A stretch of 64,000 nucleotides of DNA, from the NCBI RefSeq assembly GCF_041477585.1, contig NZ_JBGNYA010000001.1, forward strand, positions 62,001-126,000, read 5' to 3'. Positions 33,063 to 36,409 of this stretch are shown here, piece by piece. Below the pieces are notes generated by a model, which saw only the letters and a list, made by a program, of their open reading frames with translations, was not told the origin of the DNA and did no database searches. Position 1 is the stretch's first letter; each line of letters starts with the position of its first letter. The DNA is from Halobellus sp. MBLA0158. Lineage in GTDB: Archaea > Halobacteriota > Halobacteria > Halobacteriales > Haloferacaceae. Both the position numbers and the translations under genes were made by a program.

Positions 33063-34850
33063 CTACGCGTCGCTGTCCGTCTCACAGACCGTTCGGAACC
33101 GGAGTCGCACGGTCGCGGGCGCGGACGCGTCGTAGGAGATCTGACCGCCGACCCGCTCTGTGGTCCAACGGACGAGCCACAGGCCGACGCCGCCGGCGTG
33201 CTCTGTCGGCCGCTCCTCGTCGGTCTCGAAGACGTTCCGCTCCTCGGGGGGGATCCCCGAGCCCTGGTCGGAGACCGAAAGCGTCGTCCGGTCGTCGCCG
33301 GCGTCGATGCGGACAACGACCGGCGGCGCCCCGTGTTCGAGGGCGTTCTCGATGAGCTCGACGATTCCCAGGGAGACGCTCTCGTCGGCCTGGACGACCG
33401 CGCGATCGGGGAACTCCGTCCGGACGTCGGCGTCGGGAGAGGCGTCCAAGACCTCCTCGACGGCGTCGGTCGCGATCGCGACGAGGTCCCGGTGTTCGAG
33501 CGTCTGTGAGGACTCGTCGACGACGTTGCGGAAGCGCCGCGCGCTCTCGCTCTGCCTGACGAGGTCCTCGCCGGCGTCGGTGATCCGGTCGGCCACCTGC
33601 CGCACCGCCGGGTCCTCGTTATCGGCGAGCTGTTGCGCGTAGCCCAGCACGACGTTCATCCGGTTGCGGACGTTGTGGCGGAGGACCCGATCGAGCACCG
33701 AGAGGCGCTGCTGCTGGCGGACGGACTCGGTCACGTCGCGCTGGAAGCCGAGGTAGTTCGTGACCTCGCCGACGGCGTTGCGGACGGGCATCACGTCCAG
33801 CGCGTTGTGGAACGGATCGCCGTTCTTCCGGTAGTTCAGGATCGTCACCGACACGGGCCGCTCGGCGTCGATGGCCCGCCGGAGCCGGGCGACCGTCTCG
33901 TCGCTCGTATCCGCGCCCTGGAGGAACCGACAGTTGCGGCCGATGACCTCCTCGCGGTCGTAGCCCGTGATCTCGGCGAACCGATCGTTGGCGTAGATCA
34001 TCGGATTGTCCGGGAGCGACGGGTCGGTGATCGTGATGCCGATCGACGCCTCGTCCATCGCGCGTCGGTACAGGTCGAGCCGCCGCTCGCGTTCGATCCG
34101 CTCTGTCAGATCCTGCGCGAGGACGAGCCGCTCGTCGCCCTCGCCGGTCAGGACCGCCGAGAACTCACAGATCGCGGCGCCGGTGTCGGTCTCGAAGACG
34201 ACCGTCCGTGACCGCGCGCTGGACTGGGAGACGTGCGCCGGCGCATCTTCGAGGACGTGCCGGAGCGTCTCCCGGTCCTCGCCGGCGACGAACGACGCGA
34301 GCGACTCCCCGCGGACGGCCTCGCGGTCGCGGCCGAGCAGCCCCTCGGCGGCGCGGTTCATCGCCTTGATCGCGCCGTCTTCGACCAGGAACTTCGGGCT
34401 CGGCGCCAGCTCGAACAGCCGCCGGTAGCGCTGTTCAGTCTGCCGCAGCTCCTCGTCGAGGCGGCGGCGACGCGACAGCGTGTCGATCCGGAAGCGGAGT
34501 CGCCCCGGATCGATCGGCGGCGTCACCACGTCGTCGACCAGCTCGCGGATCTCGGGCGGGAGCCTGTCGAACGCGTCCGCCCGGTTCTCGACGAGCAGAC
34601 AGGGCATAAAGGGCTGCTGCCGCGACCGCCGTTCGCGGACCTCGGGCTCGATCGCCCGGAGCCCCGGGGCGTCGACGAGGCAGATGTCGAACTCGGGAAG
34701 GGAACCGTCGACCCCGATGTCCGGCGAGCACTCGACGAGGGCGTAGCCGGGGGAGTCGCGGACCCAGTCGACGAGGACGTCGCGGTTTCCTCGATTCGAG
34801 ACCGCCACGAGGACGACCGTGTCGTCGGTCTGCGGCGTCGGATCGGACAT
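33063..34850 (-). CDS. LOV-domain sensor histidine kinase (receiver-PAS-LOV-HK)
   Basis: A soluble 595-residue kinase, likely a blue-light sensor. The N-terminus (about 10-125) resembles a receiver domain (FDICLVDAPGL with a potential phospho-Asp). A PAS domain spans about 135-255. A LOV domain spans about 268-378, with the photoactive-cysteine signature GRNCRFLQG (Cys307) and the flavin-contact elements NYRKNGDPFHN and LGFQRDVTE. The haloarchaeal H-box VLRHNVRNRMNV, N-box ELIENALEHG and G-boxes DQGSGIPPEE and GGVGLWLVRW follow. All kinase motifs look intact. It starts 6 bp after a KaiC-like gene and is its operon partner. No DNA-binding domain is present, so output should go through a response regulator or KaiC. 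Confidence 0.9.
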   Translation of the reverse strand: MSDPTPQTDDTVVLVAVSNRGNRDVLVDWVRDSPGYALVECSPDIGVDGSLPEFDICLVDAPGLRAIEPEVRERRSRQQPFMPCLLVENRADAFDRLPPEIRELVDDVVTPPIDPGRLRFRIDTLSRRRRLDEELRQTEQRYRRLFELAPSPKFLVEDGAIKAMNRAAEGLLGRDREAVRGESLASFVAGEDRETLRHVLEDAPAHVSQSSARSRTVVFETDTGAAICEFSAVLTGEGDERLVLAQDLTERIERERRLDLYRRAMDEASIGITITDPSLPDNPMIYANDRFAEITGYDREEVIGRNCRFLQGADTSDETVARLRRAIDAERPVSVTILNYRKNGDPFHNALDVMPVRNAVGEVTNYLGFQRDVTESVRQQQRLSVLDRVLRHNVRNRMNVVLGYAQQLADNEDPAVRQVADRITDAGEDLVRQSESARRFRNVVDESSQTLEHRDLVAIATDAVEEVLDASPDADVRTEFPDRAVVQADESVSLGIVELIENALEHGAPPVVVRIDAGDDRTTLSVSDQGSGIPPEERNVFETDEERPTEHAGGVGLWLVRWTTERVGGQISYDASAPATVRLRFRTVCETDSDA

Positions 34851-34856
34851 ACGGGG

Positions 34857-36365
34857 TCACTCTGGCTCCGACCGGTCCGATCCGTCCCGCGCCTCGGGGT
34901 CACGGCTCCGCTCGAAGGGGTGGTCGTCCCCCCAGTCGGGCGTACCGGTGAGGATCCCGCGGAGCCCGGCCAGCGGGTCGCCCACGCGGATCCCCGCGCC
35001 CGTGATCTCGAACTCCCGGAGCGTCCGCTCGAAGTCACCGGTGCGCTTTTTGAGCACCCCGACGGCCTTGTGGAGTTCGCCGGAGACTTCGAGATACCGG
35101 AGGAACAGGATGTTGTCGGCGAGGTAGCTGATGTGGGTGCTCGTGGGCTCGAAGGTTCCCGTCACCGAATCGAGGTCGTCGATGAAGACGACCGTCACGC
35201 CCGTCCGCTTGAGGTAGCGGCCGAGCGCGTGGAGCTCGCGGACGAGGTCGTCCTCCTCGCCCCGGATCGAGAGCCGGTAGCCCGAGATGCCGTCGATCAC
35301 GACGAACTCCGCGTCCGCGGTCTCGACCTCGCGTCTGACCCGGTGGGCGAACTCGTCGGGCGAGATGGACAGGGGCTCGACCGCCTCGACGACGAGGTCC
35401 CCGGAGGCCTCCAGGTCCGCCACCGGCAGTCCGATGCTCGACGCGCGCCGGTGGAAGGTGTCCGGAGTCTCCTCGAAGAGGTAAAAGAGGGCGCGCTCGC
35501 CCCGCGCGGCGGCCTCGGTGGCGAACTGAGCGGCGGTCGTCGTCTTGCCGACGCCACTGGATCCGCTGATGACGGTGACCGTGCTCCGCTCGATCCCGCC
35601 GTGGAGGAGGTCGTCGAGCTCGTCGACGCCCGAGGGGAGCGTTCCCGAGCGCTCGCGCGGCTGGTGCGCGTCCGGCGAGAGCTTCGTGAACACCGCGATC
35701 CCGCCGTCCGAGATCCGCATCGTGTGCGCACCCGAGAAGAAGTCCGACCCGCGGAACTTCGTCACCTCGACCGTCCGGCCCTTGGCGGCGTGGTCGAGGT
35801 GGATGCTCCCGTCGCAGAGGTATTCGAGCGTGTGCCGCTCGCCTTCCAGCGCCTGTTGGCCGCTGAAGAGCACCGTCGCCGACTGGTCGGTGAGGTACTG
35901 GACGAAGCCCGAGACCTCCTGGCGGAACTGGTACTCGTCGGGCGTGAGATACTGGAGGTGCGTGAGGGGGTCGACGAACACCCGATCGGGCTCGTGGGCC
36001 TCGACGGCGTCGACGATCCGGGCCGCGACGTCGTCGCCCTCGACGACGTCCGGCTCGAACACGTCGTAGGACTGCTCGGAGACGAAGCGCTCGGCGCCCG
36101 GCGAGAGGTCCAGGAAGTCGATCCCGTCGGTGTCGAAGCCCAGCCCCTCGGCGTCGCGGCGGATGTCCTCGGGGTCCTCCTCGAAGGCGACGAACAGGGC
36201 GTTCTCGCCCGCGTCGACGCCCGCGGTGAGGAAGTGGAGCCCGACGATCGTCTTGCCGGTGCCGGCGCCGCCGGTCACCATATACGCTCGCTCCCGGAAG
36301 AGCCCCCCGCAGAGGATCTCGTCGAGCCCGTCGATCCCGGTCGAGACGCGAGCGCGTTCGCTCAT
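34857..36365 (-). CDS. Double-domain KaiC-like ATPase
   Basis: A 502-residue RecA-superfamily ATPase with two KaiC domains, close to the length of cyanobacterial KaiC. CI: Walker A GGAGTGKT (32-39), the paired glutamates FEED (62-63) and Walker B DRVFVDPLTHL. CII: Walker A GSSGVGKT (268-275), FEET (298-299) and FVVIDGISGY. The C-terminal segment THISYLADNILFLRYLEVSG aligns with the KaiC phosphorylation site region. The position of Ser431 is kept (Ser413), but Thr432 is replaced by Tyr (Tyr414). No KaiA or KaiB is in the window. The downstream LOV kinase gene follows after 6 bp. An inverted repeat surrounds the TATA element. Confidence 0.92.
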   Translation of the reverse strand: MSERARVSTGIDGLDEILCGGLFRERAYMVTGGAGTGKTIVGLHFLTAGVDAGENALFVAFEEDPEDIRRDAEGLGFDTDGIDFLDLSPGAERFVSEQSYDVFEPDVVEGDDVAARIVDAVEAHEPDRVFVDPLTHLQYLTPDEYQFRQEVSGFVQYLTDQSATVLFSGQQALEGERHTLEYLCDGSIHLDHAAKGRTVEVTKFRGSDFFSGAHTMRISDGGIAVFTKLSPDAHQPRERSGTLPSGVDELDDLLHGGIERSTVTVISGSSGVGKTTTAAQFATEAAARGERALFYLFEETPDTFHRRASSIGLPVADLEASGDLVVEAVEPLSISPDEFAHRVRREVETADAEFVVIDGISGYRLSIRGEEDDLVRELHALGRYLKRTGVTVVFIDDLDSVTGTFEPTSTHISYLADNILFLRYLEVSGELHKAVGVLKKRTGDFERTLREFEITGAGIRVGDPLAGLRGILTGTPDWGDDHPFERSRDPEARDGSDRSEPE

Positions 36366-36377
36366 TGATAGATCGGG

Positions 36378-36409
36378 GGACCGCGAGATATTGATTGTTT
36401 GGGCGGTCC
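36378..36409 (-). promoter_or_regulatory. Promoter of the KaiC/LOV operon with flanking inverted repeat
   Basis: GGACCGC at 36378-36384 and its exact complement GCGGTCC at 36403-36409 are separated by 18 bp. On the reverse strand, the sequence between them contains CAATCAATATC, an AT-rich TATA-like box about 25 bp from the kaiC-like ATG, as expected for a leaderless haloarchaeal gene. A dimeric regulator binding the two half-sites would cover the TBP/TFB site, suggesting repression. Confidence 0.5.

Follow-up and report, generated by a model that had tools for sequence, protein, structure and literature searches.

In this study we analyzed a window of 64,000 nucleotides from the haloarchaeon Halobellus sp. 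MBLA0158 (RefSeq assembly GCF_041477585.1, contig NZ_JBGNYA010000001.1, positions 62,001 to 126,000 of the forward strand), which carries an operon encoding a two-domain KaiC-family ATPase and a histidine kinase with a LOV photosensory domain. The KaiC/LOV-kinase pair is a genuine, conserved module that joins a light sensor to KaiC, and its function is likely light-gated signalling. The two genes are laid out as one transcription unit, their catalytic and flavin-contact residues are intact, and KaiC has been inherited and has evolved together with the N-terminal domain of the kinase, which is a pseudo-receiver.

Operon layout and the KaiC protein

The operon lies on the minus strand, with the KaiC gene first, the LOV kinase gene second and 6 bp between them, as had been read in an earlier note made from the sequence of the window alone. 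For comparison, 181 two-domain KaiC loci were used, each with flanks of approximately 5 kb (122 from the window's own family and 59 from nine other families, the window among them). A partner profile was grown from the first 130 residues of the kinase, and a gene was counted as a partner under a strict rule when it lay in tandem downstream or divergently upstream of KaiC, within 300 bp. The features of the KaiC gene, in window positions, are:

34857..36365, minus strand: two-domain KaiC-family ATPase, 502 aa, gene 1 of the operon (PF06745 twice, 254.9 bits; full-length alignment to solved KaiCs)
35676..36365, minus strand: KaiC CI domain, residues ~1-230, with Walker A GGAGTGKT, catalytic E62/E63 and Walker B D132 (181-homologue alignment)
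34935..35675, minus strand: KaiC CII domain, residues ~231-477, with Walker A GSSGVGKT, E298/E299 and Walker B D358 (181-homologue alignment)
35124..35129, minus strand: S413-Y414, counterpart of the cyanobacterial S431/T432 phosphosite dyad (S-Y in 162 of 181 homologues)

The protein matches PF06745 in two domains (7.6e-76), aligns end to end with solved two-domain KaiCs (6e-62) and has, as expected of this class, two P-loop domains with Walker A and B motifs and the catalytic Glu. The key residues of CI are kept in 177-181 of the 181 homologues, with the exception of E62 (156/181), and the Walker motifs and catalytic Glu of CII in 179-181. The S/T phosphosite dyad of clock-type KaiC is absent; in the window, as in most homologues, it reads S-Y, the Ser being kept and the Thr not. 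Homology to the solved KaiCs stops at residue 477-487 of 502, and the remaining tail, compared by eye only, is unlike the KaiA-binding tail of the cyanobacterial protein. KaiA has been reported from cyanobacteria only (PMC5520375). The proposal that the module works without KaiB agrees with the lack of any PF07689 match in the window's own genome, and no match above the cut-off was obtained in 99 genomes of the family.

The LOV kinase

The second gene encodes a multidomain kinase with the following features:

33063..34850, minus strand: pseudo-receiver-PAS-LOV-histidine kinase, 595 aa, gene 2 of the operon (Pfam, NCBIfam, PDB, AF2)
34410..34823, minus strand: pseudo-receiver domain, residues 10-147 (beside 176 of 181 KaiC genes; model pLDDT 90)
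34110..34406, minus strand: first PAS domain, residues 149-247 (Pfam PAS in two stretches; AF2)
33708..34082, minus strand: LOV domain, residues 257-381 (48% identity and rmsd 0.8 vs Meiothermus LOV)
33930..33932, minus strand: codon of the photoactive Cys307 in GRNCRFLQG (read directly; 76 of the 88 LOV-type partners have Cys)
33675..33677, minus strand: candidate phospho-accepting His392 in LRHNVRNRMN (invariant in 52 LOV-type partners)
33090..33497, minus strand: HATPase_c catalytic domain, residues 452-587 (PF02518, 6e-14)

The LOV domain matches the YtvA model (3e-45), a LOV-kinase model (4e-41) and LOV proteins of the PDB (1e-36 to 1e-40). The photoactive Cys of the GXNCRFLQ motif is present at position 307 together with all six flavin-contact residues (N, R, Q, N, N, Q), which bears out the cysteine and the flavin elements picked out beforehand. 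In an AlphaFold2 (AF2) model computed from a 52-sequence alignment, the kinase is built of receiver-like, PAS, LOV, DHp and ATPase parts (mean predicted local distance difference test (pLDDT) score 90), and its LOV part superposes on the solved Meiothermus LOV with a root-mean-square deviation (rmsd) of 0.8 Å. Judged by residues and fold the LOV domain is canonical, and it would be expected to bind flavin and to undergo the photochemistry of its class. The hallmarks of a histidine kinase are present as well, namely His392 and a HATPase with N and G boxes that scores above the PF02518 cut-off. The HATPase is intact in 49 of 52 LOV partners and in 41 of the 50 non-LOV partners sampled. Elsewhere the genome encodes three more LOV-type domains (L253, L254, L255), which share 50-55% identity with that of the window.

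Pairing across haloarchaea

Conservation of the gene pair across haloarchaea, on which the earlier note had staked its proposal, is nearly complete. The partner profile matched an open reading frame in 179 of the 181 KaiC loci, and a strict-rule partner adjoins KaiC in 176 of them, over ten haloarchaeal families. These comprise 139 tandem partners, with a median gap of 2 bp and 119 gaps of ≤50 bp, and 37 divergent ones; the divergent arrangement of KaiC and partner occurs in Halorubrum and two more genera. Co-occurrence was assessed in 148 genomes of the window's family, 105 of which contain a two-domain KaiC: 105 hold both KaiC and the pseudo-receiver, 37 neither, 6 the domain only, and none KaiC only (Fisher 6e-29, uncorrected for relatedness). 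A chance neighborhood of KaiC and kinase was rejected on the pairing counts, the co-occurrence, and the gain and loss at the Halobellus site described below.

The specific coupling of KaiC to LOV, which had been singled out as worthy of attention, holds in part. Of the partners, 88 have a LOV-type domain, in which the photoactive position is Cys in 76, Pro in 11 and Phe in 1, but the constant partner is the pseudo-receiver, and some close relatives of the window have Pro for Cys. LOV was rejected as the defining feature of the partners, 79 of the 176 being longer proteins without a LOV-type domain. Partner sensors are LOV, PAS or GAF, the outputs are mostly kinases, and a few partners are short proteins. 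Since the sensor varies and the pseudo-receiver stays, the constant element is KaiC plus pseudo-receiver.

In a FastTree phylogeny of KaiC, the window protein falls into a clade of 37 members (support 97), the partners of which are LOV-type (24 Cys, 11 Pro) or short (2), with no others. A second clade of 37 members has divergent partners, nearly all of them LOV with Cys. The LOV pairing is phylogenetically stable, because these two clades are uniformly or nearly uniformly LOV-partnered, and loss of the Cys is limited to a small number of lineages close to that of the window. The Pro-for-Cys partners (L059, L060, L061, L063, L064-L067, L079, L098, L100; e.g., GRNPRFLQT) retain all six flavin-contact residues in 10 of 11 cases and may therefore act as flavin redox sensors from the same position in the operon.

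The pseudo-receiver domain

The N-terminal domain of the kinase had been taken for a receiver, a view of which the fold stands and the phosphorylation pocket does not. The model shows a receiver fold (pLDDT 90), and the solved structures closest to it are those of receivers, PhoB among them (Foldseek, TM about 0.6-0.66); a Pfam scan gave no Response_reg match at the N-terminus of the kinase. Of the 176 partners, 158 have the Asp that matches CheY D57, but the Mg-binding D12/D13 pair and Lys109 are missing, position 12 being mostly aliphatic and position 109 mostly A, L, T or V; ordinary receivers within the same loci retain both the pair and K109. An ordinary receiver was rejected on these pocket residues, and a KaiB-like sensor domain as in SasA on the receiver-like fold. 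The domain is a pseudo-receiver. Phosphotransfer to it is unlikely because the acid pair and the Lys are gone, and a docking role is therefore the simplest reading. Five short partners (L183, L189, L199, L205, L214) look nearer to ordinary receivers.

In the window's genome the pseudo-receiver profile has one strong match, the kinase itself (120 bits; the next scores 33). Distances between KaiC genes correlate with those between pseudo-receivers at r 0.85 in the LOV partners, compared with 0.64 for KaiC vs LOV, and over all partners the Mantel correlation of KaiC and pseudo-receiver is 0.68 (permutation maximum 0.08). These correlations would fit docking through the pseudo-receiver together with swapping of LOV domains, with shared descent also contributing. 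Several further pseudo-receiver copies adjoin KaiC fragments or a single-domain KaiC (L258, L264, L266, L267, L270, L271); the fragments beside the kinases of L264, L266, L267, L270 and L271 are perhaps remnants or inactivated KaiCs.

Gain and loss at the Halobellus site

In Halobellus the operon is flanked by ygfZ and a geranylgeranyl-reductase-family (GGR) gene, and both KaiC and the kinase are found at this site in 6 Halobellus genomes. In the 5 besides the window's own, the order is likewise KaiC then kinase, and the KaiC stop and the kinase start overlap by 4 bp. Eight genomes (G005, G033, G053, G068, G088, G104, G109, G122) have ygfZ and GGR adjacent, and nothing matching KaiC or the kinase lies in between. 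In a further genome, G094, the kinase is still present there (L045, L277; 83% LOV identity), the KaiC gene being gone without trace. This kinase is the closest relative of the one in the window. G094 retains other KaiC copies, one of which, L090, is without an adjacent partner.

A promoter-like element upstream of KaiC is kept in all 6 intact Halobellus operons:

36389..36403, minus strand: likely basal promoter (CCCAAACAATCAATA), a short distance upstream of the KaiC start (close match at equal distance in 5 other Halobellus loci)

Its position would fit a leaderless transcript of the operon. A palindrome spotted by eye upstream of KaiC was dropped, as it is not conserved in other Halobellus.

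The site also bears on the simplest alternative, in which the genes are merely co-transcribed and both proteins respond to similar conditions without interacting. The kinase that persists in G094 without its KaiC is what such an arrangement would allow. Two gene orders, tandem and divergent, over ten families, a pseudo-receiver that stays constant as sensors and outputs change, and the gain or loss of both genes as a unit speak against it, and we regard mere co-transcription as very improbable.

Proposed mechanism and alternatives

The reading that we favor, and hold to be reasonably probable, is a two-protein unit in which a KaiC ring is joined, through the pseudo-receiver, by a light-driven kinase that signals to a response regulator. 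KaiC would form an ATP-driven, probably hexameric ring, able to autophosphorylate on Ser413, and the kinase would dock on this ring via its N-terminal pseudo-receiver. Blue light would produce the Cys307-flavin adduct in LOV, and the resulting change would travel along the coiled-coil helix and reach the kinase core with His392, where it would alter autophosphorylation. The signal may run in either direction, the state of KaiC gating the kinase or being set by it. The phosphate would then pass to a response regulator encoded elsewhere, which would in turn act on the genes under its control. REC-HalX proteins, which adjoin several related KaiC genes, are candidate phosphotransfer targets; REC-HalX regulators (and a HalOD1 protein) were seen close upstream of some KaiC genes (L190:4234-4818, L243:2424-3393, L276:1982-2587).

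Several observations weigh against this unit or temper its support. Because the genomes are related, the co-occurrence statistic and the distance correlations are both overstated, the pseudo-receiver domain occurs without a two-domain KaiC in 6 genomes, and G094 has lost the KaiC of its site kinase. In addition, 11 partners bear Pro for Cys, so that the module does not depend on sensing light.

KaiC may instead be the downstream effector, with the light-driven kinase controlling the KaiC ATPase directly and KaiC acting on a transcription factor, so that no response regulator would be required. This mode of action has been ascribed to GvpD or CirA, CirA affects transcription (PMC13286277), and some relatives are labelled gvpD by NCBI. 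Among the 50 non-LOV partners sampled, 5 have a BAT/HTH_10 DNA-binding output in place of the kinase behind the N-terminal domain, which would also suit an effector role. On the other side stand the HATPase, intact in most partners, and the REC-HalX genes beside several KaiC genes, so that we rate the effector arrangement as unlikely, if still worth considering.

The kinase-signalling unit bears on whether archaea have a clock and on how light reaches KaiC without KaiA, KaiB, SasA or RpaA (PMC5520375, PMC3941300), and a candidate single-protein partner can now be named for almost all of the two-domain haloarchaeal KaiCs sampled. Archaeal pseudo-receivers, which are not known to have been studied functionally (PMC12632262), would gain a first suggested function. 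Natural experiments are at hand in the Cys-to-Pro partners, the genome with a kinase but without its KaiC, and the empty sites, and a genetically tractable archaeon allows these points to be tested.

Comparison with known systems

An archaeal precedent is Haloferax volcanii, in which cirC is a two-domain KaiC described as adjoining 'fixL', with orc2 directly upstream, and expression of the cir genes is rhythmic and light-dependent, a pattern disrupted by cir deletions (PMC3941300). In the Haloferax genus group, assigned via L068 (98.7% identity over 11 kb to an H. larsenii plasmid), 8 of 15 genomes have a LOV kinase with intact Cys downstream of KaiC (L084, L101, L107, L109, L110, L112-L114), and in the locus inspected, L084, orc1/cdc6 lies directly upstream of KaiC. 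The cirC-'fixL' locus is like these loci and the window in its two-domain KaiC and PAS-type kinase neighbor, and like L084 in the upstream orc gene. The published 'fixL' is described as an oxygen sensor, whereas the window kinase is LOV-bearing; because the layout matches the Haloferax orc1/cdc6-KaiC-LOV-kinase loci, the analogy suggests that 'fixL' beside cirC is probably a blue-light kinase, a proposal drawn from the locus layout and not from its own sequence.

This match, the rhythmic cir expression and the KaiC/kinase hourglass proposed for Ramlibacter (PMC3164672) would all suit a KaiC timer entrained by light, whether an hourglass or a circadian oscillator, in which the LOV kinase sets the phase of KaiC without KaiA or KaiB. 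The lack of any KaiB above the cut-off in 99 family genomes, the S-Y instead of S-T dyad and the many partners that are not photoreceptors tell against it, and such a timer appears doubtful, more so than the effector role. Of the two functions suggested in the earlier note, light-input timing or light signalling, timing is thus left unsupported, and light-gated signalling is the likely one. Were there a timing system set by blue light, a single LOV kinase docked by its pseudo-receiver would replace KaiA, KaiB, CikA and SasA, a notion that we entertain with considerable reserve.

The cyanobacterial KaiABC clock with CikA and SasA has in common with the Halobellus operon a two-domain KaiC ATPase and the involvement of a pseudo-receiver, which in CikA and KaiA takes part in clock input (PMC12632262). 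Unlike that clock, Halobellus has no KaiB, no S/T dyad and no SasA-type KaiB-like domain, and its pseudo-receiver is N-terminal in the kinase. The archaeal LOV histidine kinases of Lake Diamante, one LOV of which was expressed and characterized and among which Pro and Phe variants were noted, have similar haloarchaeal REC/PAS/LOV/kinase architectures; KaiC is not mentioned in that report (PMC12202551). Archaeal KaiC-like ATPases have been viewed as signalling hubs linked to two-component parts (Makarova et al. 2017, as related in PMC5847659), and our literature search, which did not extend to Makarova et al. 2017, found no paper joining KaiC and LOV in archaea.

The closest parallel is bacterial. 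In Ramlibacter tataouinensis and other bacteria, KaiCs of the S-Y type systematically have, as the next gene, a kinase whose conserved N-terminus resembles a receiver; in Ramlibacter the two are co-transcribed, and a family of KaiC-interacting kinases was proposed together with the hourglass (PMC3164672, PLoS ONE 2011). The Halobellus operon has the same composition as this KaiC/RtaNt-histidine-kinase operon, with S-Y sites, an adjoining kinase with a receiver-like N-terminus, and no KaiB. It differs in that no LOV was reported for the Ramlibacter partner, whereas in the archaeal branch LOV is built in. The two sets are tied together by plasmid pMB01 of Acaryochloris sp. 'Moss Beach' (L275), which carries a KaiC of haloarchaeal type (44% identical to that of the window) alongside a kinase gene in divergent orientation that encodes the same pseudo-receiver (1e-24). 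It is through this Acaryochloris kinase alone that RtaNt is linked to the window's pseudo-receiver, Rta_04340 being likened by description. The LOV-bearing haloarchaeal branch, the pseudo-receiver identity of the N-terminal domain and the class-wide coupling appear to be new, and the pairing of KaiC with a special kinase is already known from bacteria (PMC3164672), the haloarchaeal LOV module being a variant of it.

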